Shown here piece by piece: positions 25,286 through 60,100 of a stretch of DNA of 64,000 nucleotides; position 1 is the first letter of the stretch, and the number at the start of each line of letters is the position of its first letter. Under the pieces are notes generated by a model. The model searched no databases and was not told where the DNA came from. It worked only from the letters and a program-made list of their open reading frames with translations. The position numbers were made by a program, and so were the translations under genes. Origin of the DNA: Rugalucina vietnamica (taxonomy: Eukaryota > Mollusca > Bivalvia > Lucinida > Lucinidae). The stretch lies in the NCBI GenBank assembly GCA_964017185.1, contig OZ024876.1:18488226-18552225 (forward strand), written 5' to 3'.

Positions 25286-25433
25286 CTGCTTTATGGCCTT
25301 GACCTACAGCAAGGTCAATGGCCATATAATCATCTTCATTCCTCAGTGTCAGATCCGCACCATATTCTAGTAACAGCTTCACACAGGCAGGGTGATTGTT
25401 GAATGCTGCGTACATCAGGGCTGTACTGTCAGT
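25286..25433 (-). CDS. RFXANK/ANKRA2-like gene: ankyrin repeats 3-4 exon
   Basis: 148 nt between acceptor TGACTTCAG (AG at 25435-25434) and donor GCAG|GTAAGC. It is phase 0 at its start and phase 1 at its end. It encodes STALMYAAFNNHPACVKLLL and then ADLTLRNEDDYMAIDLAV, the helix-turn-helix pattern of ankyrin repeats. It is the last exon found; the protein should continue about 20 residues. Confidence 0.85.
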
Positions 25434-28400
25434 CTGAAGTCAGATCATTATAATTGAGCTGCCTCACGAGAAAACAGGTCTTTGGGGTTTCCGACCAAGT
25501 AAAAAAAACAACCGGCCTGTGCAGCCAAAGAAGATGGCTAGAAGTTTGAACTCGGATGTACGAGGAAGAGGGACTGTACTATCTCTGTAGCGAATACAAA
25601 GACACTGATCTACTGTTCAGTTACTGCACAGCTGCTCTGTGCCACTGTTTTTGCCTGTGCATATTGTTGGTTTTCTTATGCAGTGGCTCTTAAAATATAT
25701 AGAGGATACATGTTCATGGAAATGGCTAAATATGTAAGTATCAACTTTTATGTTCTTTATTTCTAAATGACAATATTCTAGTCATGTCACTGATTACACA
25801 ATTGAGCAGCAATGCCAATTTTATATATCTACTCATAGCAACCATAAAACTAACACGTCAAAATATTAACTACTAAATATCCAGAAAAAAGGAAACAACA
25901 TAAGGTGAATTGAAAAATTTAATAGTTGATGGATATTGTATAATGTAATGAAAGGCTTAAAACAATATTCACTACTAGAGGACCAATGGTCCTGTAAACG
26001 CTCACCTAAGATCTGGGATAAACACCAATAAACTTGTTTGACTATTATCTTTATGTATAAATTGGTCTCCCCTTCCTAAAGATCCTCCATATTAAGTTTG
26101 GCTTTGATTTGCAAAGCACCTTTAAGAGAAGATGTTTGAATATCACAATTATAAACATGTTTTAGCCCGTGACAGGGGTAAACAACCCCCTGGGGCCTAT
26201 TTTTTTCATAAACATAAATATTCTGTCCATTTACTCATTTCCAGCAAGTTTTCCGCAATTACACAACCTATTTCTAATTTTTCCCTTTCAAATGCATAGG
26301 TGACTTAAGTTTACCTTGCCATAAAATAGGTCAAGGTCATCCCTGGGTCATGATTTATGTAAACTTTGTAGAGTTCCTCTCCCTGATGCTTCATGCCAAG
26401 TTAAATAATCATAAGCCTTCTGGTGATGGAGAAGAAGACTTTTAAAGGCTTCTGCTATTTATAGCCATGGTGGCCATCTTGGTCAGGTGGCCTAGACCAT
26501 TTACATATACACTCGTTCCCTCTACCTAAGGATGCTCCACATGAAGTTTGGCTTTGATTGGCCAAGTGGTTTCAGAGCAGAAGATCTTTAAATATTATGG
26601 AAATATGCATGTATATTGCCCCGGGGTGGGTGCACACCAGCCCCTGGTCTCCCAAATGTTTTCAGACTCATACATCTTCAGTCCATTTGTCCATTTCAAG
26701 TTTTCCTTTCCAAATGACATTTTGACAATTTTCCCCATTCAAATGCATAGTGACCTATGTTTGCCTTGTCATAAAATAGATCAAGGTCATCCCAGGGTCA
26801 TGATTTATATAAACTTTGTAGAACTCCTCTCCTTGATGCTTCATGCCAAAATTCAAAATCACAGGCCTTCTGGATCTGGAGAAGATTTTTAAAGGTTTTT
26901 GCTATTTATAGCCATGGGGACCGTCTAAGCCATGGTACCTGGACCATTTATATAATCTTTCGTTCCCCCTATCTAAGGATGCTCCACGTGAAGTTTGGCT
27001 TTAGTTGGCTAAGCGGTTTCAGAGTAGAAGATCTATGAAACTGTGGTCAACGGACGACAGAGCATGGCCATCCTATAAGCTCACCTTGTGAGCCTTCGGC
27101 TCAGGTGAGCTTAAACCCCTGCTGGCTTGATCAATTACAGTGTCTGGATTCCTTACTTTTTAGAGTATATCTAAATGTTTTTTCTCTTATGTGAACCTAC
27201 ACATGAGAAAACCAACAATTTGGGTTTCCAACCCAGTCAGACACAAACCGGCCTGTACAATCGACACAAACGGACATATACAATCACAGAAGCAGGCTAG
27301 AACTTGAAATTTTGGATACAAGTAGAAGAGGAAATTTACAATCCTTGTATCTAAACAAAGGTGCTGACAAGCTGTGCAGTTACTGCACAGCTGACCTGCG
27401 CCTTTGTTTTCACATATGCAGATTGTTGATTTTCTGATTTGTTGGATCATATCATACTTTCTCATACATTGCACAATGCCATTTAGGGCTAAACTCACCA
27501 GCCAATTCCTTGATACAGTGATTGAACTAGTATCCGGCCAAACATCTTCATTATGATGAAATTTCCCCCATTATTACCCTCATTATGCATCTACAGATTC
27601 TCAACTGGGACTTACCTTATTTTTGTGCCAAAACATAGGTTTTTGGTACTCATTAGATATAGAACCTCCTCAATGAGGCGTTTTTAACTGGTACCAACAA
27701 TCTATCTTTTAAGCAAAATATGTAAAATCAAAAAAAAAAAAAAAAAAAAAAAATAAATAAATAAAATAAAATAAACTGAGAATTTTTTAAACAAACAAAC
27801 AATGCTTTTATATATGTTGTGACATGACTAACCTCATCTGTGTAATTTACATCCACACCAAGTTTCAACAGCAATTTCACAATGTCATGGTAACCATAAC
27901 AACTAGCAAACAGCAGGCCATTTTCACCATGGTAACCAACTGCATCCAGATCAGCCTTCAAGCTGACCAGGTATTCTACTGTTGCAAGCTGTCCATTTGC
28001 ACATGCCCATAGCAAAGGTGTGAGACCATAGTCATCCACAGAGTTGATATTGCCATCTGTAAATAACAAGCTAATAACACATTACGGAAACAAGCCTATG
28101 CAATACACATATATTTTTAATTGTAAAAAATGAAAAATTTTATAATATAAATAATATTTTGCTCAAAACATTGGTTGTGGGTACAAGTTAGAACCACCTC
28201 GCCAATGGGGTTCTAATAAGTACCCACAATCTATGTTTTGGACCAAAAATAAGTAAAATAGTATACTCCTGCATAACTCAGTTTTACTATATACCAGAGG
28301 ACCAATGGTCCTGTAATCGCTCACCTGAGATCTGAGATATATACCCAATACACTTGTTTGACTATAAAGGTCATATACATATGTACATGTATATAGCGTA

Positions 28401-31400: not shown

Positions 31401-34400
31401 TATCTATCATCTATCTAATAATTCACAGGGTGTCTGACCAGTTTAAATCCACCTTAATGTGTTTTTGTTTCTGCATACAGAAGACAATTTTTCAAATGAT
31501 TCAGTGTAAATATGAGTCCACAGCATAAGTAACAGCTGATCAGTACCTTTGTTTTCGCTACACATACAGTAAAATACCTAATTTGTTCTTCTAAAATTCC
31601 GAATTTCTAGCTTCTAGCCTTCTCCTGTGACTGAAAGGCCGGGTTGTGTAAGATATGGTCTGAAAACTTTATAGACGTTTTCTAACTCAACTTATAGGAA
31701 ACAAAATTACCTTCTTGCACCTCTTGTTTCAGTGAAATTAGCTCCCCTTGTGCTGCCATCTGGTGGATTGTAAGACCTGCAAAATATGATTAGATAATAA
31801 AGATATGGTCAGATTATGGCTTAATGTCTCTGTCCACAATTTTTAGTCATGTCAGAAGGAGCTACTAATTCATGGGTATTAACCACAATTATGGGCAGCT
31901 TAAACTTTCTTGCTCGAGCACACAACATTAGTAGGTTTGGAGACCAGGACTTATTGCTCTAGTCATGAACTATACTACTAGGCCACTGATTTCCCAAAAT
32001 AAATAATACACTAATACCACTAGTCATAAACTGGCTACTTTTGATCCACAACAGAAACTGTTGTTACACTGCAATTCTTGCATAGATATTTATGAGTATC
32101 ATTGTTTGATGCCAAAGTGAAATGGGCAGGAAACTGCCAGCCTTCAAACAACAAACCCATGTTCAAAAATTAATCATAAAACTAGTGCACAGTTTAAAGA
32201 TGGATTTTACTTACCAGTCTCAGGAAAGTCCTGTAAAGGCTCACCTGAGATTTACAATATGCTGAGATCCATGCCCTTATGCATAACACTGAGTCAACCT
32301 TGGGCAGAGAACATACATATAACCTTCTATTCATTTGCCCATTTCTGCAAAGTTTCCCCATAAAATGGCATTTCATCATCTCCCCATTCAAATGCATAAG
32401 TGACCTAAGTTGATCTTGCTATAAAATAGGTCAAAGTAATCCCAATGTAATGATTTATATATACTTTGTAGAGCTCCATTCATTGATGCTTCATGCCAAG
32501 TTTCAAAGAGCTTCTGGCTTTGGAGTAAAGGATTTTGTTATTACAGCCCTGGCGGCAATCTTGGTCATGTAACCTGGATTATTTGATATATAAACATTCG
32601 TTCCCCCTTTGCAGGAAGGCTACATATGAAATTTGGTTTTGATTGGCCAAGCGTTTTCAGAGGAGATGTTTAAAGTACATGACCATATACACGAAACTTG
32701 CTCCAGGCCAAATTATTTTCACAAACAAAATATTTTTTATTCTGTCAATTTTTCTATTCCCAGCAAGATAATGCCATTTTACCAATTTTCCCAATTCAAA
32801 TGCATAGGAGACCTAAGTTGACCTTGCTGTAAAACTAGAAAAAGTGCCTTGAGAGGCACGTATACCCCCGGCTGGTAGCTCCCCACCCCCACCCCTAAGC
32901 CCACCGCCCCTGACCCAGACATGTTCACTGACACATTGAATCTCAATTCCCGAATTAAAAAGAGCACCCTCAACAAGTAAATGTTAAAAATTCTAATTTG
33001 CAAAAAACACCATCTAAAACCATTGCAGGGGGTAGGGGGTGGGGAGGAGTGTAGTAGAATGACACACTATTATAGAGCAGTATACAGAGCTGACTTGTAT
33101 ACTCAATCTAGGACTTGATCGCGGACACTGAGGGTCAGGTCCTCGGTCCTAGATGGAAAATAGAATGTCATTCTTTAATAATATTAATAAAAAAATCTAA
33201 GATGTCCTAGATCTTGACCTCTAGCCCCACCCTGGGCATGGAACCTAGAGTGTAATGTCATTAGAAACAAGGCAAACCTTATAGAGTACCTATGGTGCAA
33301 GTATGAATGATTTCTAAACATGGTGGTTAAAAATAAAGTACAGAAAATATAAGTTTTAAAGAAGTTCTAGATTTTGACCTCTAGCCCCAACCCCCGCACA
33401 TGGACCCTAGAGTCTGAACCTTACATGGTACCTATGATCTAAGTATGAATGCTTTCTGACAAGACTTATTTGATGTCAATAAAATAGACTTACAGAAAAT
33501 TTATCACGGTATCTATCATATTATAAATGTGTCCTAGATTTTGACCTTTAGCCCCACCCCTGGGGATGGTACCATTGAATATGAAAGGAAAACATATAGG
33601 GTATCTATGAACTAAATAAGAATACATTCCTATGATTGTTTATAACATTATTGTAAACAGCACATTTTAAAGGTGACCTAGATTTTGACCTCCAGCCCCA
33701 ACTCCCCCCCCCCCGGGCATGGACCCTGTGGTCCAACCTCATGGAAACAAAGCAAACCCTATAGTGTACCTATGATCCAAATATGAATGGTTTCTGATCA
33801 TTGGTTCATGAGATATACACCTCTAGAGAAACTTTAACAAAAACTTTGACATAAATTCTACGAACGTTCCAGAATTACGAACGAAGAAACAAACAAACGA
33901 ACAAACGGAAAAGCGAAAACTATATACCCATCGGCATAAATGCCGGGGGTATAATAAGTCAAGGTCTTCCCAAGGTCATGATTTAGAGATGTTTCAAAAG
34001 TGTGAACAACGACACAGACAATGTCAATGCCATAGAATGCCCATCCTGTGAGTTCTCCATGAGCCTTCACCTCATGTGAGCTACAGACATTGTAAAACTT
34101 TGCTTGTGGGCCATTCAAAGTTTATGAGATATTACCTTTTTACAATAATTGAAAATAATATTTGTTACTTATTCATTAAAACCGGTTTTTTACTTGGCAA
34201 GGCTATTCCACCTCATAAATAATTTTACAAAACATCAGGATACCATTTCCATGTAATATATAGACCTTATACCCCATTGGGGCATGCAGGGGTATACCTA
34301 TTTTTCATTTTTTGATCCAAAACATAAATTGTGGGTATTCGTAGAACTGTCTCACCAAGGCATCAATCAATGTTTTGTGCAAAAATATTAAACATATCAA

Positions 34401-37400
34401 TTTTTTTTCCTTGAAATTTTATTTTTTTGCTTCTGAAAAAAATCTCTGTTTATTGTGTGGCCAAATTTTTGCAAATGGATTGGCAAAATTTTGATAAATG
34501 AGCCGCCACATGGGAAAATCAACAATTTGCTTAGGCGAAAACAAAGACGCGGATCAGCGCCTTTGTTTTCGCTACACCAATAGTACAATTCCTCTACATT
34601 CTAAATCCAAAATTTCCGGCCTCTAGCCATCTTCTGTGACTGTACAGGCCGGTTTGTGTCAGACCTGTTCGAAAACCACAATTGTTGGGTTTTCTCATGC
34701 ACAGGCTCAAATTATCTCGGAATTATCATCATAATTATTCTGCATGAAGTCCTTTACTTACTATGGAAGACTGGTGTTGTTGTTTGGACATTTCCTCTCT
34801 GTAGATTGGTCATCACTGTTGATGGCTGCAACATAAAGTAACCAAGGTTTTGTTTAAACACTAACATAATTTTTTATACATTTTTATACCCCGCCACTTA
34901 AAAAAAGTGCGGGGTATTATGTTATACCCTCCGAAAAAATTTGCGTTCGAGTGTCCGTCCGTCCGTCTGTCCGTCCGTCTGTCTGTCCGTCAGCGTTTCG
35001 TTTCCGGGCTCTATCTTGAACATTCATTGACCGATTTTCTTCAAACTTTGTATAGGAGTTCATATCAGGAAGGAGTGATTTGGGATTGAAGATGGGTAAA
35101 TTTCGTCAAATAACTACAGTTATGGCCCTTGATTTACGTTAAAATTTCGTTTCCGGGCTCTATCTTGAGCATTTATTGACCGATTTTCTTCAAACTTTGT
35201 ATAGGAGTTCATACCAAGAAGGAGTGGTCTGAGATTGAAGATGGGTAAATTTCGTCATATAAGTACAGTTATGGCCCTTGATTTACTTTAAAATTTTGTT
35301 TCCGGGCTCTATCTTGAGCATTTATTGATCGATTTTCTTCAAACTTTGTATAGGAATTCATACCAAGAAGGAGTGGTCTGGGATTGAAGACGGGTAAATT
35401 TCGTCAAATAAGTACAGAGTTATGGCCCTTGATTTATGTTAAAATTTCGTTTCCGGGCTCTATCTTGAGCATTTATTGACCGATTTTCTTCAAACTTTGT
35501 ATAGGAGTTCATACCAAGAAGGAGTGGTCTGGAATTGAAGATGGGTAAATTTCGTCATATAAGTACAGAGTTATGGCCCTTGATTTACTTTAAAATTTTG
35601 TTTCCGGGCTCTATCTTGAGCATTTATTGATCGATTTTCTTCAAACTTTGTATAGGAGTTCATACCAAGAAGGAGTGGTCTGGGATTGAAGATGGGTAAA
35701 TTTCGTCAAATAAGTACAGAGTTATGGCCCTTGATTTACGTTAAAATTTTGTTTCCGGGCTATATCTTGAGCATTTATTGACCGATTTTCTTCAAACTTT
35801 GTATAGGAGTTCATATCAGGAAGGAGTGATTTTGGATTCAAGATGGGTAAATTTCGTCAAATAAGTACAGAGTTATGGCCCTTGATTTACGTTAAAATTT
35901 TGTTTCCGGGCTATATCTTGAGCATTTATTGACCGATTTTCTTCAAACTTTGTATAGGAGTTCGTATCAGGTAGGAGTGGTTTGGTATTGAAAATGAATA
36001 AATTTTGTTAAATAAGTACAGAGTTATGGCCCATGATTTACATTAAAATTTCGTTTCCTGCCTCTGTTTTGTGCATTTATCTACCAATTTTCTTCAAACT
36101 TTGTATAAAAGTTCAAATCAGGAAGTAATGGTTTGGGATTGAAGATGGGTAAATTTTATCAATGTATACATTTATGACAAAATTTGGTTCTGCTCTTTAT
36201 CTTGAGAATTTATTGACAAACATTTTTGCTAAATTAAATTTGCGTGGCGGGGTATCATGCATGCCTGCAGCGCTTTTATTTATAAAATGCCTGATCGCTC
36301 CTTAGGTGGAAAAGAGCTACTGTCTATTCCATCTTCCAGAAACTGCATTTTTCATGATATCACTTTTCTGACAGACCTCAAGAAAAATATTACCAAGTCA
36401 CCATTTTGCATTTCAAAAGTCTTAAAAGTGCCTTAAAAATTTGAAAATCAGTTAACGAATAAAGATTTTATGCCAGAAAATAATTTTGAATAGGGCATTT
36501 CCATTGTAATAATGTCAGCAAGGGAAGTAACAATTTTCCTGGAAAAAATCTAAATTGGTTATTTTTCATTTAAAATGCACCAAACCAAAACAAAATTGTA
36601 TTGTATGCATAGCTGAGCACAAAACTCTTAAAGTTATTCCACAGGTTTGCTTGATTTTCAATTTTAAGGTGTTTGGATTACCTCCCTTGCATATGCAAAA
36701 TGCCTATTCAAAATAATTTTTGGGCACAATTATTTTATTAGTGAACATATTTTCAAGACTTTTTGCTGCATTTTTTACAACTTCTGTGTTGCAAAAAGAT
36801 ATTATGGTCAAATTTTTCTTGTGGTGTTTTAGAAAAGTGAGATTTGGAAAAATGCAGTTTCTGAAAGATGGTGTACAGACAATAGTCATCTTTCTCTTCA
36901 TGTGTGTAGATCCAGTAATAAACTACATAACAGTCAAGCTTTGTTTTGAGCAGAAATAAGGAAATATCAAAAATATTCAAATGAAATTCTCTATAGCTTA
37001 AGCGAAATCTATGGATTGCATTGCATGGGCATGTTCATCACACATACTTGTACTTGTAAGGTATACACCTTATACTCCATATTTATATAGTAAAATTGGG
37101 GTTTACAGGGGTATACCTATTTTTCTTATTTTTGATCCAAAACATAAATTATGGGTACTCGTTAGAACTGCCTCACAATCAATGTTTTGAACGAAAAAAA
37201 AATATCATAATTTTTCAAATGAAATTTTCAATTTTTACACCTGGAAAAAAAATCTCTGTAAATTGCATGGGCCAATTTTCGTAATGTTTCATAATGAGTA
37301 ATTATCCTTACCCTGACTGGTGTGTCATGACTTTTGATCTTGGATGGTGATAATGACCTGTCAGAACCACCTGAAACCATGACAACAAGTTGGATCAAGA

Positions 37401-38465: not shown

Positions 38466-38529
38466 CTGTAAATGCACATAGATTATTATTTAGAATTCAA
38501 CAAGTACAGGTCCCCAGGTTAAAAAACTT

Positions 38530-39980
38530 TTTTCATGCTCAGCTCAGCTGAGTATAAAATTTAAACTGCTCAGAAATGAAAAAATAGTCGAAATAAATTA
38601 AAATTTAAACAGTGTTTTCTGAGGAAAACTATGTCCCCCCAACTGTTTAGTAATTGGAGTGTAGTTACCTTGTAATATGAAGTTTTTCTATGGAAAACAC
38701 CATGCCCATCTTGTTCTGTACGGTGTGGTAGTTTAAACTTGTTTTGGACCCTGTCTAAAAGTAGGTCACAATCACCAAATTCTTATTAACTCTGAACCTC
38801 CTCACAACAATGCTTTTGTGCAAGTTTGGTTAAAATCCATCAATTGGTTTACAAGTTATCGCGTCCGAAAGACTAATTTCAACAGTTATGAACTAGTGAC
38901 CTTGGAAATTAGGTCAAGGTCACCAAAATCTTATCAACTCTGAGCCTCCTCCCAACAATTCTTCTGTGCAAGTTTGGTCAAAATCCATCAATTAGTTTAC
39001 AAGATATAGCGTCAGAAAGACTAATTTCAACAGTTTTTGACTAGTGACCTTGGAAATTAGGTCAAGGTCACCAAAATCTTATCAACTCTGAGCCTCCTCC
39101 CAACAATGCTTCTGTGCAAGTATGGTCAAAATCCATCAATTGGTTTACAAGATATCATATCGGAAAAACTAATTTCAACAGTTTTTATGGACTCGTGACC
39201 TTGAAATTTAGGTCAAGGTCATCAAAATCTAACCACCTCTGAGCCTCCTCTCAACAATGCTTCTGTGCAAGTTTGGTCAAAATCCATCAATTGGTTTACA
39301 AGATACTGCATTGGAAAGACTAATTTCAACAGTTTTTATGGACTCACAACCTTGAAAATTAGGTCAACCTCACCAAAATCTAATCAACTCTGAGCTTTCT
39401 TGCAACAATGCTTCTGTGCAAGTTTGGTCAAACTCCATCAATTGGTTAACAAGATATAGTGTTGGAAAGACTAATTTCAACAGTTTTTATGGACTCGTGA
39501 CCTTGAAAATTAGGTCAAGGTCACCAAAATCTAACCAACTCTGAGCCTTCTCCCAACAATGTTCTTGTGCAAGTTTGGTCAAAATCCATTCATTTGTTCA
39601 GAAGATATCGCATCGGAAAACTCATTTGATCAGTTTTCATGGGCTGGTGACCTTGAAAATGAGGTCAAGGTCATCAAAATCTATTCAACTCTTTCCTCCC
39701 TCCCAACCATGTATCTATGCAAGTTTGGTCAAAATCCATCCACTGGTTCAAAAGATATCGCATCGGAAAGAAGCTACGCGGATGCAGACGCCGACGCCGA
39801 TGGGATCCGCACCAAAAAGTTTAGAACAATATGTCCCCCACCTTCGGTTGGGGGGAAATAATTTTGGGTTTAGATCACCAAATCTTGTAATTTATAATTA
39901 ATGTTAAAATGCCAAGAATTGTTGGCATTTTAACATTTATGAGAAGGATAAATTTTAGTCCCAGCTGAGTTGAGCATGAA
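38530..39980. mobile_element. Tandem-core element E4, seven units of 148-151 bp
   Basis: The ends TTTCATGCTCAGCTCAGCTG (38528) and CAGCTGAGTTGAGCATGAAA (39961) are inverted. The unit phrase AAGTTTGGTCAAAATCCATC recurs at 38822, 38970, 39118, 39269, 39420, 39571 and 39720. Most units carry TGACCTTG...TTAGGTCAAGGTCA. A second inner pair, TGTCCCCCCAAC (38633) and GTTGGGGGG (39847), suggests a nested or composite end. No coding frame. Confidence 0.8.
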
Positions 39981-40801: not shown

Positions 40802-41051
40802 ACCACAGTTTTTTTTTTTTTTTTTTTTTTTATCATTTTATGCTCTTGGCGCCAGCATGGCCAGGCGCCACACAAACCACATGCTAATAATGAGAAACTG
40901 AACTCCACCCGGCACAATCCAAAAATAATTAATTGAAAGCTTTTAAGCATATCAAAATTTGACAGGCTGTAAAATAAAGCGCAACATTATTTCTTTTTAT
41001 CTCTACAGAATTTATGAAATAAAACATAAATAGCCCTAATAGCGATCAAAA

Positions 41052-42395
41052 ATGATTTTGGCATTCCTTACAACCGAGCCCGTCAAGTCCCTTGCTTGTA
41101 ATTACCGCCCAGTTTCTTTGACTTGTATTCCTTGCAAACTTCTAGAACATATTGTCTGCTCAAATATCATGGGTCATCTTGACCAGTATAATCTTTTGTC
41201 GGACAAACAGCATGCATTCAGGAAATGGCATAGTTGTGAAACTCAGTTAATTACAGTGATAAATGATTGGGCAAAAATATTGGACAAAAAGGGTCAGGTT
41301 GACACTTTTATTTTGGACTTTGAAAAAGCTTTTGACACCCCTCCACATGAACTTCTTAAAAGCAAATTGTTTAGTTATGGTATAGGTGGAAAGACATTGG
41401 AATGGATAAATGCTGTTTTGTGCTTCAGGCAGCAAAGGGTAGTAGTTAATGGTGTTAAATCTGACTGGGCCCCTGTTGTGTCTGGTGTCCCTCAGGGCAC
41501 CGTTCTCGGTCCATTGTTGTTCTCCTTGTACATAAATGACATACCCGTTGGCATTGACTCTCAAATCAGGCTTTTTGCTGATGACTGTGTTTGTTACCGT
41601 GAAATTAAAACAGTAGAAGATACATTGAAACTTCAGAAAGACATTGACCTTTTAGGGAGCTGGGCCCGAAAATGGGGCATGAGATTTCAACCTGTCAAAT
41701 GCAACATGATGCAGCTGACAAATAAGCAGATAAATAAAATTGAGGCCTCGTACACCCTCGAGGGAACGGTTTTGGAAAATGTTGATAGCATTAAATATCT
41801 AGGTGTAACAATTACAAATGACCTCAAGTGGAATACCCATATCAATAATATCTGTACTAAAGCCAACAGAACACTTGGATTCTTGAGGAGAAACTTATTT
41901 TCTTGCCCCCAAGATGTTAAAGAAGCAGCTTATAAAGGACTGGTGCGCCCAGTCCTGGAATATGGAAGTTCTGTTTGGGATCCTCATACTAAATGCCTCC
42001 AGGAGGAATTGGAGAAGGTTCAGAATCGTGCCGCTAGATTTGTAACTAGGAATTATACTTTCGAGGAAGGTAGTATGACTGGCATTCTTGAACAACTCAG
42101 ATGGGAATCTCTCAAGAAAAGGAGGACGGATAATCGACTTATATTACTATACAAAGGTCTGAAGGGTAAAGCCAGAATACCTACAGATGACCTTATCCCA
42201 AAGACTAGGCGTTGTAGAAATAGCCACTCCAAGGCATTTCAGCTTCCATCTGCTAGTATAGAGGCCTATAAATGTAGTTTCTTTCCCCAGACTATCAGGG
42301 ACTGGAATGACCTCCCTGACTCTCTGTTTTCTACTGCTGAAATGTCAGATGATTGTGTGTCCAAGTTCGCTTCACTCGTGCGTTCAAGGGACTAA
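41052..42395 (+). pseudogene. Non-LTR retrotransposon reverse transcriptase, 5'-truncated (Jockey/CR1 type)
   Basis: An unbroken 447-codon frame holds the reverse transcriptase palm: NYRPVSLT (17-24), DFEKAFD (89-95), SGVPQGTVLGPLLF (144-157), FADD (175-178) and KYLGVTI, then a C-terminal domain with VLEYGSSVWDPH and WNDLP. These are the family landmarks of Jockey/CR1-like ORF2. The endonuclease and the start of the RT domain are absent; the first 15 or so residues are probably flanking DNA, and the nominal ATG is not the element's own start. The frame is intact, so insertion is fairly young. It is 5'-truncated, as expected from incomplete reverse transcription. It stands antisense to the ankyrin gene, upstream of its found exons. 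Confidence 0.88.
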
Positions 42396-45892: not shown

Positions 45893-45916
45893 GATTAATG
45901 ATGCTTATCAGACAGC

Positions 45917-46136
45917 GAGCCGCGACGCGAGAAAACCGGTCCTCGGGGTTCAAGTGCTGACCAGGTCTGACACAAACCATCCTGTACAGTCACAGAAACA
46001 GGTTAGAAGCTTGAAATTTCGGATGTAGGAAGAAATGGAATGGTACCTATCCGTGAAGCGAAAACAATGGCGCTGATCTGCGTCTTTGTTTTCGCATAGA
46101 TAAAAATCCGTTTTTTTTTTCACGACGCGGCTCACA
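45917..46136 (+). mobile_element. Hairpin MITE family B, palindrome deleted
   Basis: GCGAGCCGCGACGCGAGAAA to CACGACGCGGCTCA. The central hairpin is reduced to GGCGCTGATCTGCGTC. Confidence 0.8.
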
Positions 46137-46657: not shown

Positions 46658-46955
46658 CACTTACACGAAAACTTGCCCATGCAATATACAGAGATTTAAT
46701 AAAATTGTAAAAAATCAGAAAATTTTTGATATTTTTAATATTTTTGCTCAAAACATGCATTGTACCCAACACGTTAAAAGATCAGAAAAATTTTGATATG
46801 TTTAATATTTTTGCTCAAAACATGCATTGTACCCAACTTGTTAGAAACTTGTTCTAACGAGTACCCAGATAAAAAATAAGAAAATTAGGTCCATGCAAGC
46901 CCCAGTTTTCCTACATAAAAATTGGGATTGAGGGGGTATACATGTTTTCCTGATG
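46658..46955 (-). mobile_element. Hairpin MITE family A, reverse, with an internal duplication
   Basis: It starts at AAAACTTGCCCATGCAATAT and ends near CATGTTTTCCTGATG. A block of about 75 bp (AAATCAGAAAATTTTTGATA ... CATGCATTGTACCCAAC) is present twice, at about 46707-46782 and 46783-46833, and the palindrome is reduced. Confidence 0.7.
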
Positions 46956-47172
46956 CTACAGCTTGGAAAAGACAAGTAATCAGCATATCCCGAATGCCCT
47001 TAGAAACACATAAATGCTGTCTTTCAATAAATTGTTTGTCATGAAGGATCACGTTGCCAGAATTTAAAGTTACTGTAGGAAATCGACCAGAAACTTTTCT
47101 GTAAAAAAATAAATTGATCTAAAATGTCATTGTGTCGAGTGCAGTTGTCGTTGGCTGTGTGTAGTCAGAGTA

Positions 47173-47454
47173 CATCAGGAAAACATGTCCGTGTAATGTA
47201 TACCCCCTTAAACCCCACTTTTATATAGTAAAACTGGGGTATGCAGGGGTATACATATTTTTCTTATTTTTGCTCCAAAACATAGATTGTGGGTACTCGT
47301 TAGAAACGCCTCGGCGAGGCGGTTCTAACGTGTACCCACAATCTATGTTTTGAGCAAAAATAAGAAAAAATATAAAAAATTTTCTACTGAAATTTTTAAA
47401 TTTTTACAACTTAAAAAATCTGTGTATATTACAAGGGCATGTTTTCGTAATGAT
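47173..47454 (+). mobile_element. Hairpin MITE family A, reference-quality copy
   Basis: ACATCAGGAAAACATGTCCG to GGGCATGTTTTCGTAATGAT. The central palindrome GAAACGCCTCGGCGAGGCGG with flanking ACTCGTTA and TAACGTGT is nearly complete. It ends 110 bp before the start codon of the next gene, so it may lie in the promoter or a 5'-UTR intron. Confidence 0.85.
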
Positions 47455-47563
47455 ATACTGACTGATGCAAGAAAGTGGATGATAGTTTAAAACGTAATTG
47501 AATTTTCGTTACCACCATTTATACACCATGATTTTATAGATTGTTGGCACCAAAGAAAACATC

Positions 47564-48100
47564 ATGGAAAATGACGAGAAGAACGAGGGGACCTCTGTTG
47601 ACCAGCCAGAGCCAGTAGAACGTGCCACTGAAGAGGATTTTGAAATCCTTGACATTCGTGACGCTCAAGAGGCTGATATAACGGAAGGGACAGAGACACA
47701 AAACACAACAGCGGCGACGGGGAAAGAAGAGAACGCAGTGCAAATCGATAGACTAGAAGAAGTTGGGAATACTGATAGACACGAAGTTGCTGGGGGAAAG
47801 GAGATACAGAATGTAGCGGACGAAACAAATAAACAGACAGAAGCTGGGATTATGGATAAAACAGAAGTTACCGGGGCAACGGATAAAAAGACCGTGACAG
47901 GAAAAACGGGGAAAGAACCAGATAAGCAAGACAATGTAGAGGAAGCTGGAGAACAAGGAATTGCAGATGATGCCGAAATCATGATGTTACGCGGGGCAAC
48001 AGGCAAAGATGACACAGAGAATGAACGAAAGACAGACATTGAAGGAGATATGGTTGGCATTTTGGCAAAGCCGAAAGAAAGCGCTTCGCAAGCTAAATGG
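47564..48100 (+). CDS. Unknown gene, exon 1 (acidic repeats)
   Basis: 537 nt, donor AAATGG|GTATAT, phase 0. It encodes a low-complexity tract with loose TEVTGATDKK / TGKTGKE-like repeats, probably disordered. The same frame has TAG at 47537-47539, and TTTTATAG there could also be an acceptor, so coding could begin in an earlier exon with ATG 47564 internal. The antisense frame over this exon is a shadow. Confidence 0.8.
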
Positions 48101-51100
48101 GTATATATGTTCTTAAACCAAAACACAAATGCAATACATAATACATTGCATGTAAAAGCACATAGTGTTCCTTCCTGATTATAAAATTCTTGGTATATTT
48201 TTGTTAGACTGTCTATGGAACAAAATGGTCGCAAAATAAGAAGAATTTCAGAATGAATTATCCAAACACATTGTCATATATCACAACGCACAATCACAGC
48301 AACTAGTTTTTAATTATTTAAGAAAGGATGATAATTGAGCCACTGCACCAGAAAACCACCAATTTGCATATGCGAGAACAAAGACGCAGATCAGCTGTGC
48401 AGTAACTGCACAGCTGATCAGCGCCTTTGTTTTCACTAAATGGATAGTAGAACCCCTCTTCTTCCTAAAACCAAAATTTCAAGCTTCTAGCCTTTTTCTA
48501 CGACTGTACAGACCGGTTTGTGTCAGACCTGTTTAGAAACCAAAATTTTTGATTTTCTCACGCATAGGCTTAATTGATAGCAAACTTCTCTCCTGATAAT
48601 ATTCTGTCTTAAAATTTCATGAGACTCAGTATGCCTGTATGACATCAGGAAAACATGTCCGTGAAAGGTATACCCCATTAAACCCCACTTTTATATCGAA
48701 AACTGGGATATGCAGGGATATACTTATTTTTCTTATTTTTGCTCCAAAACCTAGATTGTGGGTACTCGTTAGAACCGCCTCGGCGAGGCGGTTCTATCTT
48801 GTTCCCACTATCTATGTTTTGAGCAAAACTAAGAAAAATGTCAAAATTTTTCTATTGACAAATTTTAATTTTTACTGCTGAAAAAATTATCTGTATACTG
48901 CATGGGCAAGTTTTCGTAATGATGCGTGTTCTTTTTTGTAGGAGAAAGAGGGCGTGATTCACGTTGATTTCTTTGAAAGCGGACGCCGACCGAAACCGTG
49001 CAAACTAGAATTTCTAGGAGATCGGGCCGTGAAAATAGACAATGAAGAAGTTGCAGTAAGCAAGCTACGGTATGCCACTCGGAGAGAGTACAAGAGTTTT
49101 CCCCAGAGAGCCGCGCATTGTATCATAGTGTCTTATGTCGCCGTCACTGGCCCGGGGGAGGGGGGTGAGGGCTTGGTCAAACATAGCTTCCTCGAGATGC
49201 CAGATGTAAAAGATACTATCAATCTTGAACAAGATTTCATGGAACTGTTAATAAGGAAATTTCAGAAAACGCTTGATTTAGACCAAACCAATTTGGATTG
49301 CCTTGAAACAGTTAATGAGCAGCCACTGATTTTTGAAGGTGCGGATGTGATAATCAGGGACGCAAATGACAGAGGCAACAGTATTTACGACGGTCGGTGT
49401 TTGGTTGTATTGGACATAGAGTGTCTCTCGATCTACCCTGTTATCAATAAAGAGATGAAAGAACCTCACCGACTAATGTTCTGGAAAGAGGAAGGGGACA
49501 ACAGTGTCGAAAAGATCTTGCATTACACGAAAACAGAAAAGATCGTTTTCGAAACGTCGACTGCGATGTTCGAACTGGTAAGATTATTATTGACTTTGCT
49601 AAGATATGAGCAGCGTGATGAGAAAACCAACAATGTGGTTTCTGACCAGGCAAGCGGTACAAGCACAGAAGGTGGCTACATACTGGAAATGCTAGATTTA
49701 GAAAGTAGAGGAACAGTACTATCCGTGTAGCGAAAACAAAGGCGCTGATCAGCGTCGCAGTTGCTGCGAAGCTGATCCGCGCCTTTGTTATATAGCATAT
49801 GCGAAATGTTCGTTTTCTTATGATGTGGCTCATATTCAGGCGACCACAACCCTGTGAAAAATATGGCAAGTTGTATGTAAGCAAGGGAATTCTGAGCTCG
49901 AAATTTTTGTCACTTGATATCCTTTGATAGGAAAAGGTACACGTTGGCAATGCGCAGGAAAAGACGCAATCAGAAAGAAATGTCCACTCCGAAAATCGAG
50001 ATGGGAACAACTAGATTGAGGTACTTATACTTAGAAAACATATCGTAAGCCGAGTGAGCAGCTATTTCACAATAGGCGGCCACTCAGTTACCGGAACTTA
50101 AATACAAAAATGAAAACGCACATAATTCAAACAGTACAAAAAATCGACTCCAAAACATAAAACAAATGGAACCACAACAGAAGTATCGCCTTAGAACGAT
50201 CAGTGGCGGCAGTTCATACGTGTACCCACAATCTATATTTGGCGCAAAAGCAAACAAAATATCTTTTTTTTTTTTTCCTACTGATTTTTTTTTCTTTACA
50301 GCTCTAAAATCTCAGTATAATGCATTGGCATTTTTCTTTAACATTATCAATGTATTTTTCAGCCTGTGATCGGCAACATCATAGAACAACTTCACGAGCT
50401 GGACCCCAAAGTGAAAGGTCTTCTTCATGGTAAGACAGTACACTTCAACCTCATTATAACGCGCCTCACCTTAATGCGGTTTTTAATATAACACGCCCAT
50501 GTCATGGCTCCAAAATTGATTTTTGGTATATGCTTTATACATACGATTTAATATCCTCATTAGAACACTACAGTCTACATATACTTATAACACGGTCTTT
50601 TTCTTTTGATCCCAAAGATAGCGTTATGAGGCGAGTATTAAAAAAATATGTATAATATCCGTGTAGCGAAAACGAAACCACTGATCAGCTGTGCAGTTAC
50701 TGGTCTGCGCCTTTGTTTTCGCACAGGCAAAATTTCAATTTCGTCAGTTTACAGGCACTATTCAAACTAAATAATTTAAAAGAAAAATAGCAGGTTACTT
50801 ATCAAATTCAATAAATTCAAGATCAGCCGAAAAAGATTTAAAAAATCGTCCCATTTTAAAAGTTTTCAGTGCACTGAAACTATCAATTTAGTCTGACTTA
50901 AAGCCTGGTCTTGTTGAAGGCAAAGTCCGGCTCAATCTGTAAGTTTACAAAGCATACAAAAACTAATTTCCTTGATGTTAGAAATGTTTTGTTTTACCAA
51001 CATTTGCCCCCTTACTTATTTCTTTTAATTTATGTTATCATATGACGTCATGTCATAAAAAATCGTATAACCATACGTGTATTAACACTTTTGCGGGAAT

Positions 51101-54100
51101 ATGTAACGTCATTGACGACGTCCGTAACAACAATGTAAATTAATTTTCATTGAAGATATGCCCGCTTTAAAAGCGGTAAAATCGTATTTTAGAAGTCATA
51201 TGATAAAACGAATCTTACACTCGTGGTCATTTCATATGAAATTAATTAAACTCGCCGAAGGCTCGTTTAGTAAATTTCATATGAAATGACCACTCGTGTA
51301 AGATCCTCTATGTATGACAAGTTGCATGCTTTCGACGACTTAAGCCCAGACCATTTTCACGTATAATTTAATTTCAGACAAAGATTTGTTAAATCAGTGG
51401 GTCACCACAACACGGAGGTCGAAGAAGAAACCATCGTCGGCAAGCGCCTCATTATACCCAGGTAAACAGAAGGCACTAGTAGCCTCTTTGGCGTTGTTAA
51501 CACACGCCTTGTAAACCAGGGGTTGTGGGTTTGACCCTGGGCTTCGCCAGTCTTTTGGATGAGACTTTAAATCAAGCTCCGTCTGGTCTCTGTGTGATCA
51601 TGGTTGTTAAGTGAGACGACCCCCCACCTCTAAAACAACCTACAACACCACAACATCAAGAACAAATATAACCCAAACACCGGGCCGTTACAAAAGAGGT
51701 CAACCTGTATGCAGTTTTTAAGCGCAGACCTGTGCATTCCCTACACGAGAAAACGAACGCGAAATAAAAAATGAACATTTGTTCTTAGATGACCTGATGG
51801 CCTACTGATCAACCACATTGGGTCCATTTTAGTCAAATAGACGCTTTTCTCGCAATTGGATAATTGCAATTGTAAATTCTTAATAACCATTTGTGAATTG
51901 TTAAAACATTGTTAATAGTTAAAAACATTGCTCATCAGTGTCTTGGATGACACGATGGAGCACTTCCCTGGGGCGACTATAGTATAGCCTTGGGCAATAG
52001 ACGAGTCATCTGGGTACCAAAGAGATTGGCTTTGACTACAATACGAAATATTCAGAGGTTTGTTTTTCAGCTGTAAAAATGAAAATTTCATTGCAAACAA
52101 AAATGATATCAATATCATATGTTTTGCACAAAACATAAATTGTGGGTACACGTTAGTAAGAACCTCCTCGCCGAGGCGGTACTAATTAGTACCCCCAATC
52201 TATGTTTTGGATAAAAAAAAAAGAAAAAAAATGGTTAAGCCCTGTTAACCCTAGTTTGGGGTTCAATGGGGGTATACATTGCATTGACATGTTTTCCTGA
52301 TGAAATAAGTTGAACATCGTAGAACCATAACTACATTTACGAATGTCGATGAGCATAGTTTGCGCTATTATGATAAGCTAGGATAAATACAACTTGCGCT
52401 GTTTTGATAAAACACCCGAATGTCCCATGCATACATTAGGATAACAAGACTTCGATGTATACCCTTGTACATTACACTTCCCTCTAGTGAAACTTTGACG
52501 CACAGGGATATAGACCTGTGTTTTCATTTCTGCTTCGAAAAATATTGATGGTATCCGTTAAAACGAGGATGTCATAACGTATATTGATGTGAATTGCATT
52601 GCTTAGGCGTTTTTCGTACTTAGACAACACGTGTTTTGTCCCACAGAAATCCACCAGGCTCACAATGCTGAAGCGAGGCGTAGGCCGGCTCGAGAGTGGG
52701 AGAGACCCGCGGACACGGGGACTGAGTGGGAGAGACCCGCGGACACGGGGACTGAGGTGTGGGAATATCATCAAAGTAATGTACCACATCTAGTCTTTGT
52801 TTCTCATTTTTAGATGTTCTACATCTATTCGTTTTTTTTTCACTTTGTTTGAGATGTACTACATCTATTCTCTCTTCTTTTTTTTCCATTTTTTCGATGT
52901 ACTACATCTATTCTTTTCCCCCATTTTTAGATGTACTACATCTATTCTTTTTTTCCATTTTTAGATGTATTACATCTATTCTTTTGTTCTCATTTTTTAG
53001 ATGTATTACATTTTTTTGTCAATTTTATGATTTCAAAATTTGAGGTCCGGGCTTTATGAACAACGTAAAAAGGTACAAGTAGGCAACGATCAGGAAAAGG
53101 CGCAATTAGAAAAAGATTCACACTCCAAAACCCGAGGTGGGAAAAAAACTTAATTAACAATCAGGTACTTATGCCATGAAGACATATCGTAAGCTGAATG
53201 AACAGCTATTTTCCCAATAGGTCGTCACTCAGTTACCTAAACTTAACTAAAAGTATGAAAACATATATACATAAGTCGCCAACAGCACAAAAAATTTAAC
53301 AATCAGGTACTTATATCATGAAAACATATTGTAAGCCGAATGAGCAGCTATTTTCCAAAAAGGTGGCCACTCAGTTACCTAAACTTAACTAAAATATGAT
53401 AACATATATACATAAGGCACCAACAGCATAAAAAAATTTAAACACCAAGGCATAAAACAATACGAACCACCACAGAAGTATCGCCTTGGAACGATCAGTA
53501 ATATAAAATTATTGGCGGGCTTAAATCGATTTTACAGGTACCTAACCTCATCATCAGCTTCTGCAGTGGTTCACAACATTTAGTAAGATGTTGGGTCCTC
53601 GTGGTGAATCTCTAGCTAGTCAATGAATCATCGTGGACAAATAAATAAATCATGATAAATACCATGATTAATCAAAAACGAGGACTCACAGATTGAGTAA
53701 GCTGCCCGACGATGGAGGTCCCTGGGCGCCAACCAGTTGAACCTCGATGGGCCAAGCACAATATCGCATGCCTGAGGCGCACAGTTGGGTAAAGATTCAT
53801 AACATAAATACAACAACATGAAGTTTCGTACCTGGTTTCGCTACATAGTACACTTCTTTTTCTTCATAAATCTACAACCTTGGCATCGCATCCGGGTCTA
53901 TTCTGTTTACCTATAGAAAATTCATTGAAAAAGTGAAAATTTAAAACCACTCCTGATTCCCCTGAAATGAAAGTGGACTCACCCAAATGATAACGATTCG
54001 TCACTAATGGGATAATTCATCACGAAAACATGTCCGTGCAATGAATACCCCCTTAAACCCCACTTTTGTTATATAGCAAAACTGGGGTATGCAGGGGTAT

Positions 54101-57100
54101 ACCTATTTTTCTTATTTTTGCTCCAAAACATAGATTGTGGGTACTCGTTAGAACCGCCTCGGCGAGGCGGTTCTAACGTGTACTCACAATCTATGTTTTG
54201 AGCAAAAATAAGAAAAAAAAATCAAAACTTTTCAGCTGAAAAATTTTCGATTTTAAAGCTCAAAAAATATCTGTTATTGCATGGGCAAGTTTTCATAATG
54301 CAAGATTCTATCTTACAGGGCAACAGATAGAGAACACCATCGTCAGGGAACTGAACAGTGAGTACACTTCTGAGCCATCACATAGATAATCTAGCAAGTT
54401 GTATTTCCGACCATGTCTGACACAAATCAGCTTGTACAGTCACAGAAGCAGACAGGAAGCTTAATTTCGCATTAAAGTAGAGTAGGATTTGTACTACATG
54501 TATCTATGTAGCGAAAACAAAGGCGCTGATCAGCTGTGTAGTTACTGCACAGCTGATCTGCGCCTTTGTTTTCGCACATGCAGATTGTTGGTTTTCTGAT
54601 GCGGTGGCACATGTGTTTGAAGCAAATCGAGAGGATAAAAGTCCCATATTAGAGAAGTTGTTGGTCGTTAATAGCTAGTTTTCTTTTGTAGTAATCGATA
54701 TTCATTTTTCCTTTTTGATCAATAATGCCACCATTGCAGAGTTTGAAATAATAATTATTACTTTAATGAAGTTTTTTAAGCTGCACCACCGTAGAAAATC
54801 TGTCCTGGTGTTTCTGACAAGGCTGCACACCGTCGAAATCATCTGGTCAGGAGCAGAGTACGATAAGAGGCTAAAATTGCAATTTGATTAATATGCGAAT
54901 AGGAGGAGTGCATAGGCTACATGTATGTAGACAATAATATAAGATTATTATATGGGGTTCTGTTCTAGATGGAAGTTTCCAACCCAAGGGATGACCGTGC
55001 TGGTCATCGGTCATCCCGAGGGTTGGAAACTTCCATCTAGAAAAGAACACCATATTAGATTCTTTTTCTTGCACAACAACGCCCCAAATCTGGTTTATAT
55101 CAAGGTTTTGCGTATTTTTTTTTTTTTTTGGCGCACTTAGCCTGGGCGAGAACACCTGGGTGAGATGCAATTTTATCACCCAGGCAAAAAGTGTGGCAAT
55201 TTCTGTCTGGTGTGCAAGAAAAGCTCTTCTAATGAAGTATCATCTTTTTAGCTCACCTGAGCCGTCCGACCCACAAGGTGAGCTTATAGTATAGCAGTGA
55301 CCTGGCGTCTACAATTTTCAAAGATCTCTGAATCCACTCGGCATGTTAAAGTTCACGCGAAGCCTCCTTTTGAGGGGGATCGACAGCTTCTATCATTAAA
55401 TGGTTCAAGTCGCACGAATATTCTCCAGAACCATCAGACATATGCTCTTGAAACTAAGGTATTGAATCTCTACAAAGTTTGTTTAAATGATGATCTTGTG
55501 ATAACCTTGACCTGTTTCATGCCAAGGTCAACGTTGACCTCCAATGCATTTGAATGGAGAGCATCCCCACTTGCTTTATACAGTCATATGACCGTAATAT
55601 TTAGATGTATTTTTCTCTGAAATTGCAATAGCATGACCAATCAAAACCGAATTTCATGTGGATGGCTTATGGGTAATTTTATGTAAATGGACATAGTCAC
55701 GTGACCAAATGATATTCATACTGCATACTGCATACCAACCGTCCCCAAGACAGTTTTTCCTAATATAATCTTGAAAATTAGGCGAAGCATGGGAGTCTCT
55801 TGAGCTTTACAAAAATATTTTAATGATCTTGGCCTATTTTACGGGAAGATTTGGTCCCGTTTCGCCTACTCCCATTTCGCCTACTCCCTTTTCGCCTATT
55901 CCCATTTCGCCTACTCCCGTTTCACCTACTCTGGACATTCAATGAATCCCATTTCGCCTACTCTGCACTTTTTGACACCAAATGTTTTGCACAAGCCCTT
56001 TAAATAATCATTTTCTTCAGAACCAAAAAATGAATAAATACACATACTTATTTCACTTTTCTAAGGTAAACTTCAAAATGTATTTGCATATTTAAATGAA
56101 TCTCATGTTTGAAAACAACATTCTATTCTTGTTATTCATCCATACTGGATGAGTAGGCGAAACGGGAATAGTGAACATTTCTGGTGTAGGCGAAATGGGA
56201 GTAGGCGAAACGGGAGTAGGCGAAATGGGACAAATCATAGGCGAAACGGGAGTAGGCGAAATGGGAGTAGGCGAAATGGGAGTAGGCGAAACGGGAACAT
56301 CCCTGCGGGAATATCATTTTTATGCGTATGCATTTACATTAGGAAAACTGTTACGGGGCGAAAGATGGGTTAATGGATTAAAGGCCAATGTTTTTGGAAA
56401 TATTTTGAGCCAAGATTTGTTTGCCACTGCCCATGGCGAAATCAGAAAATGCATGTATTGGCATATACAGTCCAACCTGTCCTAAGCAAGCGGCCAAGGG
56501 AAACACTACTACGACTATCTTTTGAGACAATAAACAATGAATTATGGCATTTGGGTGTGAAGACAATTTTGACACCTGGCAGAGTTTTTATATCCATGTC
56601 AAAATATTTCTTTTTTGTGAAATTGATGAAATGATTATGAGTGGCTGCTTAAGGCCAAAATTGGGACAGAAACTAGTGGCCTCTGGCCACATATGACAGG
56701 TGCTTGCTTAATAGAGGTTCATCCACATGTAAAATCAATTGGGGGGAAATTAAAGTGCTTGCTTAAGACAGGGCTTGCTTAAGACAGGTTGGACTGTACA
56801 TGTATACCAGATCTCAGATGAGCGTTTACAGGACCATTATACACCATTCATTTGTAACCACTGCTCCCCCACCTACGGGGAAGGGTGGGGATTATGGTTT
56901 TTCAGCTTTCAGTGCCGTGCTATAAGCCCCAATCCCATCGGACAAACTGGGGGTCAAATTTTAACTCTTTGCCCCGCCCTTCGCAGTAGAAAATCTCCCT
57001 GGGATGGGACCCAAATGTCAAAACCCCGTCATTTCCCTTACACTGAGAGGACACTCGAAAAGTTATTGCCCTGCACTTTAGCCCGGCTATTCCACACCCT

Positions 57101-60100
57101 TCCCCGTAGGTGGGGGCAGTGGAACAAGAAAAATAAACAAATGACTGGTGCATTAGTCATCTGATTTACCTAGCGGAGCTGAATTTTTACATAGCGGAGC
57201 TGAATAACGCAGTAGAATCATTTGCAACCAATGAAGATATGCAGATGTACTGGATCACTGTAGAAGAAGATCTACGTCTTATTATTGAGAGCGGGTGTGT
57301 GCACGAGACTGATCATTACAGTGGAGGTAAATAAAAAACTATAACCATCAGGAAAACATGTCTGTGAAATGTATACCCCTTAAACCCCACTTTTATAATA
57401 GCGAAACTGGGGTATGCAGGGGTATACCTATTTTTCTTATTTTTGCTCCGAAACATCGATTGTGGGTACTCGTTAGAACCTCCTCGCCGAGGCGGTTCTA
57501 ATGTTCACCCACAATCTGTGTTTTGAGCAAAAATAAGAAAAATATAAAAACATTCTATTGAAATTCTAGATTTTTTACAACCCAAAACAATTCTGTATAT
57601 CATTTTTGTAATGATTTTTATTACTCTCAGGTCATATGAAATGACAAAAAGGACTTACTTAATATATTTTTTAGATATAGAAAGGTCATTTCACTCGAAG
57701 ATGACAACGCTCATTTAGAAGTTGGAAACGCAGTGACGAGCCTTTTTTCACAAATAAACATGTTTTGCTTGCAATATCACCTTTATGATTTCACACGTTT
57801 TTATAACTCCATGCGAGCGCAGTGACGTCGCGCACGGTACTGAGCAATTTCTTAAAAATGCCACCGTTTGCATTTCAAGTGGTAATAATATAGCCGAATT
57901 AGTGCAAAAGTACACAAATTATATATCAGATTTTAGGAAATTTTTCGGAGAATTCGAAAAATGTGACATTTTTTGCGTTTTGAATGTATGTTAACGGAAA
58001 ACGTCAACATGTAAACTGTTACATATCATTTCGTAATTTCTGTGAAAACTGTGTATATCTAGGTGAATGTGCGAGATATTCTGCCAGTATTTTTCCCACA
58101 TTATAACTATTATCCGCTTATATCAACAACATAACCATAGTTTCGGTGAAAAATATGAACCTCAACGCGACAAAATGTACCTTCGGACTTTCTGACAATA
58201 CTAGTGGAAAGTGTCAAAAATCGGAAAAATCATGAAATTTTTGTTTTAGAAATAACACTGTATTTGTAATCTTTGAACACTGGGCTGCCAAATGAATGAA
58301 TTTTAAAACTATTTAAATTATTTTCAATATCTGGAGTTATTTGCCCTTGTTTTAGCCCACACTATACTTATTTTGCTATATCCATCGTTAAATGGTAACC
58401 ATAGCAACCGAATCGTCATAAAAATAGTCAAAATAATATTAACAAATTACCTGTAAGGATGATATGCTTCGATCTTAACATTAAGTTCTTCCCATTGCTA
58501 AAACTGTTTTAAGCAAATGCATCAAGTTTTGTAAGCTCTACTAAAATGAAGAAATACATTACGCAACTTTGACGTCATTTTTCAGAACAATGACGTCTGT
58601 GGGGTTCATAAATATAATTGTAAAATGGTCATAACTCACAAAATAAGTTGAATAATCTGGTCAAATAAAGACTATCAGACTCTAGAAACATTAAACATTC
58701 AAAATGACCATGTTTTTTCTAATACTTAAAAATTGTCCGAAGGTACATTTTCTCACGTTGTGGCCCATATGATTATTGAGAAAAACGAATGTATCAGTTG
58801 TGTTAGCGCGCGTAACTTTTTTCTTATATGTTGACCCCTGCGTTGCTCTTGTAATTGCTGTGTTGTCAAACGAAGGTATTCGGGTAAAGTATACATATAA
58901 GTATCTAGAAACTTGCTGAGAAATCCAGGCAAGTGCCTGTTCTACATGATATTGTACGACTGGGATTTCGATGTCTCAAAAAATGTCCAAACAGCGAAAA
59001 AATAACAATTTAAAATACCACATACTTATTCGAAAACAATTTTACTTGTTTTCGTATTTTGAAAATGTTTTGCATGCATTGTAATGAAATATACATGTAT
59101 TGATTGATGTACAGAAAGCTATGATATAAGTGCTGTCGTTACATATGATGGGAAAATAAGTATGCTTTTCCGATTTCTCACAAAATGTCCCATTACGCAG
59201 TTTTCGCGCGTTTTGACGTTGCTTTGTGCATTTCCTATAAATCCAAAATCACGACACGGTCTGTTCAAGAAATCGTACTTTATACTCGTATTAACCAACC
59301 TGCCATTAGAACAGTGTGTTTGTAGTCGGATGCCCCAAACTGAGGTGTAAATATGGATGACTTTAGTAGTCTGGCAGTGAATACACGAACTAAACCACGC
59401 TGTCTGCGAGTAAAAATGTCAACAGCTCAAACATGACGAAATTAATCACTAATGCGGGAACCTGTCACAGTATGATTTTGAGACGTGTCTACCAAAATAT
59501 TATATTAATTTATTTATACCCCCGGCATATACGAAGTATATAGGGGGTATATAGTTTTTGTCTTTTCTGTGAAGATGTTTGTGTGCGTGTGTGTGTGTGT
59601 GTAAACTTTTTTTCTGTCAAAGATTTCTCTGAAACTACTTGACATAGGATGATGAAATTTGGTACAAACATTGGGTATGGTAAGTTGTATTGTGTAAGAA
59701 AGAATCAGCCATCTCCTTCTTATCAGTCCCTTTATTTATCCATTTTTCTTTCTCTCTGATTGAAATTTCTGTCACAGATTTCTCAGCTCCTATTCATGCC
59801 AGATTCTTCAAATTTTGTATACATGTGGACAGTGTCCAAGTGTATTGTGTAAGAGAAAATCAGATGGCCAGTATTTGTTTTTCCATCCTTTTTCCACTTT
59901 GTAGTTTTTCCATCTGTTTTCCACTTTGTAGTTTTTCCATCTGTCACTCCTGTATGATGAATATGGAAATTTCTGTCAAAGATTTCTCAGGAACTGCTTG
60001 ACATAGGACATTGAAATTTGGTACAAACATTGGGTATGGTAAGTCGTATTGTGTAAGAAAGAATCAGCCATCTCCTGCTTATCAGTCCGTTTATTTGTCC

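Follow-up and report, generated by a model that had tools for sequence, protein, structure and literature searches.

Several ways in which transposable elements meet introns have been described, and the extracts of the relevant papers drawn on here offer three points of reference. Introners have terminal inverted repeats in many families, and insertion into linker DNA is reported there for many introner-bearing genomes (PMC9860276). For human and mouse, the short interspersed element (SINE) and DNA classes, all copies taken together, are given as underrepresented within 50-100 bp of exons (PMC3088655). The haemoglobin genes of Lucina pectinata carry a consensus resembling a miniature inverted-repeat transposable element (MITE), MITE-like consensus 1, which is 210 bp long, has inverted repeats of 30 bp and a palindromic centre of 77 bp, and occurs in every HbII intron (PMC4732748). 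Our subject is a stretch of 64,000 nucleotides from Rugalucina vietnamica (the window, G000:C8:18488226-18552225, from a genome of 1.09 Gb in 47 contigs), in which the ends of two hairpin-forming MITE families, A and B, crowd against the splice sites of two genes on opposite strands. The literature titles and abstract beginnings surveyed contain no report from an animal of such an excess close to splice sites.

Element ends at intron edges in the window and beyond

At 10 of the 27 junctions in the window (16 on the plus-strand gene and 11 on the minus-strand gene), an A or B end faces the splice site from 13-29 nt inside the intron, facing ends being counted up to 30 nt away. When the element map was shifted circularly, such junctions averaged 0.62, with a maximum of 5 in 20,000 trials, and random placement of the elements gave the same mean with a maximum of 6 in 3,000, so that an earlier sequence-only reading, which had counted ten of 27 and expected about one by chance, was right in its count and fair in its expectation. 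The ten elements, with their matches to family hidden Markov models (HMMs), are as follows, the copies near 50363, 54357 and 31711 being partial, with ends that were extrapolated or judged by eye.

48643..48921, + strand: A, full length (HMM 1-279); right end 20 nt before acceptor 48942; absent from the paralogue L002 (below)
50187..50343, + strand: A, left-truncated (HMM 124-271 to 50335, end extrapolated); right end ~19 nt before acceptor 50363
54018..54300, + strand: A, full length (HMM 1-279); right end 18 nt before acceptor 54319
57346..57600, + strand: A (HMM 1-256); left end 19 nt after donor 57326
28080..28300, - strand: A, left-truncated (HMM 43-279); right end 23 nt before minus-gene acceptor 28056
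37036..37286, + strand, antisense to the gene: A (HMM 1-279); right end 25 nt after minus-gene donor 37312
49607..49832, + strand: B (HMM 1-237); left end 29 nt after donor 49577; also in L002
54371..54608, + strand: B (HMM 34-234 from 54404, end extrapolated and eye-read); left end 13 nt after donor 54357
31534..31689, - strand: B, partial (HMM 32-161 from 31667, end eye-read); left end ~21 nt after minus-gene donor 31711
25455..25689, + strand, antisense to the gene: B (HMM 1-236); left end 21 nt before minus-gene acceptor 25433

The families and the range of distances were picked in the window after the fact, and the weight of the argument therefore rests on independent samples. Among 267 independent exon edges, 25 (9.4%) have a facing A or B end within 35 nt, against 6.3 expected at the element density of the window (P 1e-8). 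The excess at intron edges is real, family-specific and present in unrelated genes as well as in genome-wide donor counts, with a usual rate of about 9% of edges against 37% in the window, which is extreme. The sequence-only reading had named termini spread evenly within introns as the outcome that would speak against it; that check has been run in part, over these 267 edges and the donor counts below, and did not overturn it.

The first sample comprised 80 stretches holding 88 matches (27 of the 91 listed Myosin_head rows and 61 of the 136 listed Pkinase rows), hence 176 exon edges, at 164 of which a script assigned the splice site; the acceptor of L090 lay beyond its range. Fifteen facing ends were found within 35 nt, several of them identified by eye beyond the point that the HMM reached. 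Single edges, 72-73 nt each, made up samples 2 to 4 (60, 18 and 13 of them), with L161 and L219 recognised by eye and the type of end also settled by eye for L157, where the HMM match names the right end and the longer sequence fits the left. The cases, with distances from the splice site, were these.

Sample 1, donors, B left end: L096 28, L098 11, L102 25, L112 34 and L118 34 nt
Sample 1, donors, B right end: L124 18 nt
Sample 1, donors, A right end: L145 26 and L148 16 nt; L127, with 19 terminal positions missing, aligned edge at 9 nt
Sample 1, acceptors, A right end: L112 22 nt
Sample 1, acceptors, B left end: L122 30, L081 13 and L090 12 nt; L126, with 31 terminal positions missing, aligned edge at 27 nt
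Sample 1, acceptors, B right end: L098 24 nt
Samples 2-4, B left end: L157 18 and L161 17 nt
Samples 2-4, A right end: L176 18, L201 11, L211 4 and L212 19 nt
Samples 2-4, B right end: L186 23, L219 26 (tentative) and L221 17 nt
Samples 2-4, B with left or right not named: L208 25 nt

Three further candidates were dropped before counting: L167 as uncertain, L231 for an A-like end at ~34 nt seen by eye with 13 nt visible, and L234 for a B that overruns the start of the match. The last 13 edges (sample 4) contributed no case within 35 nt. In the first 78 edges of samples 2-4, nine stretches score at least 1, eight of these lying no farther than 35 nt from the edge; dinucleotide shuffles give 0.05 per 78. 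Judged by the HMM-aligned edge alone, 36 junctions of sample 1 have a facing element, and among the 35 lying within 200 nt, 15 are within 45 nt and 28 within 100 nt; enrichment within 100 nt is the robust statement for this sample.

The density of facing ends falls with distance from the exon, from 0.0036 per nt at 11-35 nt (23 cases, without L211 and L127) through 0.0014 at 61-100 nt (nine cases, L098 and L120 being placed nearer by their ends) to 0.0004 at 101-200 nt (seven cases). Over the edges before the last 13, which this test covers, the innermost density exceeds that at 101-200 nt 8.5-fold (P 4e-8) and that at 61-100 nt 2.6-fold (P 0.012). Other repeats look depleted near exons and lack this excess: they cover 0.04 of intron flanks at 21-40 nt and 0.10 at 61-80 nt against 0.30 in the window; A and B cover 0.06 and 0.13 of these flanks against a window average of 0.15, the two classes having been detected by different methods.

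Genome-wide, the exact pattern of a donor AGGTRAGT, then 0-30 nt, then an element end (so that the donor lies 6-36 nt before the end) was found 53 times for B-left, 70 for B-right, 59 for A-right and 39 for A-left. The reverse-complemented donor, a control of the same composition run for A-right and B-left, gave 15 for A-right (binomial P 3e-7) and 16 for B-left (P 9e-6). The octamer is matched by 6 of 83 sample donors, and with an assumed 150-300 thousand donors and average element density the predicted excess is 3-6, against an observed 44 for A-right and 37 for B-left. In five-nt bins of the gap N (0-4 onward, the distance from the exon being N + 6), A-right counts run 10, 13, 18, 7, 7, 4 and the control 1, 1, 1, 4, 5, 3; the A-right profile thus peaks 16-20 nt from the exon (P 0.01 against flat).

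As to which end faces the splice site, the sequence-only reading had the right end of A at four acceptors and the left end of B at three donors, in gene sense each time. The 25 independent cases comprise eight A-right and no A-left, 11 B-left and five B-right, and one lacking a left or right call. The right-end preference of A survives weakly: genome-wide donors favour A-right by 59 to 39 (P 0.054 if the odds are even, 0.015 with base rates of 38 to 42), and among acceptors facing an A end at 36-60 nt, L104 and L140 have the right end and, against the preference, L159 and L207 the left. The rule for B does not generalise, there being no B polarity at genome-wide donors (53 left and 70 right on a base of 36 to 48, P 1.0); B-left stands to B-right as 5 to 4 at independent donors and 6 to 1 at acceptors. 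An acceptor-like site in B sense, 32 nt from the right end (score 4.6), fits the imbalance at acceptors; beside this idea of a decoy splice site stands the acceptor-like site that B also has in antisense, 61 nt from the end (score 5.6).

The families, the genes and the age of one intron

Consensus sequences and HMMs made from 29 genome copies of each family are 279 bp long for A and 237 bp for B, and a first look at the genome yielded 4251 candidates for A and 3559 for B, of which the best 40 of each were scored and matched; the window holds 21 A and 22 B segments. Both have terminal inverted repeats, CATCAGGAAAAC../..GTTTTCGTAATG in A, whose consensus ends are CATCAGGAAAACATG.../...GTTTTCGTAATG, while the consensus ends of B are TGAGCCGC.../...GCGGCTCA. 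RNA folding predicts that each consensus would form a single end-to-end hairpin, at -143 kcal/mol for A and -129 kcal/mol for B. The flanks of B show a 2-bp target-site duplication (TSD) in 32 of 47 pairs, at the target AAYA-NN-TRTT; those of A are T-rich and show no clear TSD (out of 42 pairs, 21 match over 1 bp, 5 over 2 bp and 3 over 3 bp). Both look like ordinary, very abundant MITEs.

The minus-strand gene is an ANKRA2/RFXANK homologue with ankyrin repeats matched by Pfam. Joined from three of its exons, the peptide aligns at residues 1-138 with residues 8-145 of ANKRA2 chain 3so8, and the equal lengths support two joins, 31711/28056 and 27833/25433. In the plus-strand gene the main exon has no Pfam match and no significant match in the PDB (best E 1.4), and the edges of that gene at 47541, 48098, 51379, 51461, 52647, 52755 and 57179 were assigned from reading alone.

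25288..25433, - strand: ANKRA2/RFXANK-like exon, ankyrin repeats (Pfam and ANKRA2 match)
27833..28056, - strand: ANKRA2/RFXANK-like exon, ankyrin repeats (Pfam, ANKRA2 match, coding-exon search)
31711..31776, - strand: ANKRA2/RFXANK-like exon, beginning of the matched ankyrin region (ANKRA2 match)
37312..37372, - strand: ANKRA2/RFXANK-like upstream exon (by reading of the sequence)
48942..49577, + strand: plus-gene exon, in a region with 82% DNA identity to L002 on C13 (alignment)
54319..54357, + strand: 39-nt plus-gene exon between A (18 nt) and B (13 nt) (by reading)

Exons 48942-49577 and 54319-54357, and that of L112, each have A-right just upstream and B-left just downstream. Elsewhere the window holds a frame resembling a long interspersed element with a reverse transcriptase domain (41043-42395; PF00078, E 1e-31), tandem arrays at 34967-36170 (period ~151), 38758-39804 (148-151), 59611-61720 (332) and 22057-23028 (43 nt), and, at 9522-11342, an open frame of 606 codons that includes a long Thr-rich stretch and matches nothing in Pfam over the cut-off.

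A coding-exon search of the window and 65 loci gave eight candidates; it brought out L002 and too few junctions. L002 (G000:C13:30882736-30885816) is a diverged paralogue of the plus-strand gene, with 82% identity across the aligned main exon and the intron after it, and aligns to window positions 48574-48642 and then 48919-49917: it is without the A at 48643-48921, and the acceptor AG is kept. It is also without the B at 48336-48569, shares the B at 49607, and has, 13 nt after its next donor, the right end of an A that is truncated at its other end, at a place where the window lacks one. The two copies, differing as they do in their MITE insertions, form a natural presence/absence panel for dating insertions. 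Since L002 has the same intron and AG without A, the intron is older than the A copy at this one locus. The sequence-only reading had also proposed that the elements supply splice signals or give birth to introns in the manner of introners, and at acceptor 48942, the one testable locus, neither finds support.

As a general account, we regard such birth, or the supply of splice sites by elements, as very improbable. Two introns do carry B on the donor side and A on the acceptor side, L211 has its donor only 4 nt away from A, and the element end of L126 and L127 is missing exactly at the splice site; with their outer 31 and 19 positions unaligned, complete ends there would have reached it. Those three are, however, the exceptions among the 25 independent near cases, the other 22 of which have 11-34 nt between element and splice site, as the window has 13-29 nt, and L002 has its intron and AG without A.

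Insertion, survival and other explanations

The explanation that we place first, with about as much belief as doubt, joins an insertion bias for exon-flanking intron to a clearance imposed by splicing. A and B gather within the first ~100 nt of introns that already existed, flanking exons on either side, and their density is greatest 10-35 nt from the splice site; their transposition machinery would be biased to intronic DNA beside exons, which would be accessible, AT-rich and perhaps linker DNA next to an exon nucleosome. Purifying selection would clear the innermost ~10 nt, where U1, the AG and the polypyrimidine tract are recognised. Closeness to the exon may be tolerated because each element can fold into one long hairpin that could be looped out of the transcript. 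A more specific form of this, which we hold with more doubt than belief, is that the machinery recognises exon-flanking intronic DNA through exon-edge nucleosomes or co-transcriptional structures at splice sites, such that splice-proximal intron is preferred and introns grow from their edges. The kinase genes L122 and L126, with similar junction peptides (SYLYQLLQG and SYTYQITQG), have an antisense B just before what seems to be the same acceptor, possibly a recurrent target.

Several observations weigh against this account, and against the sharpness of the distances in particular. In sample 1, of the 27 copies within 200 nt whose alignment comes within two positions of the element end, only seven fall at 10-35 nt, against ~3.6 from an even spread, so that the peak among intact-end copies is suggestive only and, with the aligned-edge counts, the exact range of 13-28 nt is weakened; several near ends were recognised by eye, and the A-left donor profile is flat (8, 8, 5, 7, 5, 6). 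Nearness of the hairpin was tried as a cause of polarity and rejected: with the consensus inserted in silico at 30 of 103 empty junctions, splice-site accessibility showed no consistent difference between left and right.

Taken by themselves, target-site motifs reach scores up to 2.1-fold higher beside splice sites, and the pattern might in principle come from target composition alone, with motifs beside splice sites attracting A to T-rich sequence and B to AAYA-NN-TRTT with its 2-bp duplication. B has a clear target and A its T-rich flanks, and position weight matrix scores for insertion sites, which range over 0.70-2.13 at 10-29 nt, are 1.22-2.13 at 10-19 nt in five of the eight combinations of family, side and orientation and 1.08-1.79 at 20-29 nt in all eight. 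The remaining three at 10-19 nt score 0.70, 0.83 and 1.06, however, the flanks scored include element-bearing junctions, and the observed excess is about 4-fold (25 against 6.3), so that we consider this account unlikely.

Near copies, moreover, are not younger (mean identity 0.79 against 0.84 for others, P 0.06), nor do near and other copies within the window differ in identity, and differential survival could therefore yield the same pattern. Insertion would then be uniform and deletion turnover high, near-exon copies persisting since deletions there also hit splice signals or the exon. The fall in density away from exons fits, as do the slightly greater divergence of near copies and the loss of at least 12 terminal positions in six of 15 facing copies whose aligned edges lie within 45 nt against two of 20 at 46-200 nt; the depletion of other repeats near exons does not, though larger elements may do more harm there, and nor does the lack of an age difference in the window. 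Such sheltered survival is our second choice, possible but held with more doubt than belief. The insertion preference for intron edges proposed by the sequence-only reading fits the independent edges and the genome counts; a bias in survival fits them too, and preferential insertion and preferential survival are not yet separated.

Less probable than any of these, introner-like birth apart, is that the introns were only ~100-250 nt long when the elements arrived, every insertion then lying near a splice site before later growth. The eight introns that lie whole within a single fetched stretch are indeed ~290-580 nt long, in a fetch that favours short ones; the account predicts a flatter profile over ~100 nt, however, and should hold for all repeats.

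A family-specific excess at 10-35 nt would amount to a natural experiment on how little flank splicing needs, and edge insertions offer a possible route of intron lengthening. It is also a case in which insertion preference and selection are separable by population data.

Comparison with known elements

Like other MITEs, which are non-autonomous DNA transposons, A and B are short, have terminal inverted repeats, number in the thousands and form hairpins, and the 2-bp duplication of B is a further likeness; they differ in the lack of a clear duplication for A and in the concentration of both families at intron edges. The Lucina pectinata consensus (PMC4732748) has an anatomy like that of B, a likeness drawn from its published description. 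From introners, as the extract of PMC9860276 presents them, the present case differs in that the element is not the intron, mostly sets no splice sites and, at the one testable intron, arrived later than the intron did. With the mammalian zones of underrepresentation, on the excerpted account in PMC3088655, the likeness lies in a distribution of transposable elements ordered by distance from splice sites and in the appeal to selection near exons. The direction is opposite: the mammalian description is of intronic transposons underrepresented close to splice sites, whereas A and B crowd the intron edges and are overrepresented at 11-100 nt.

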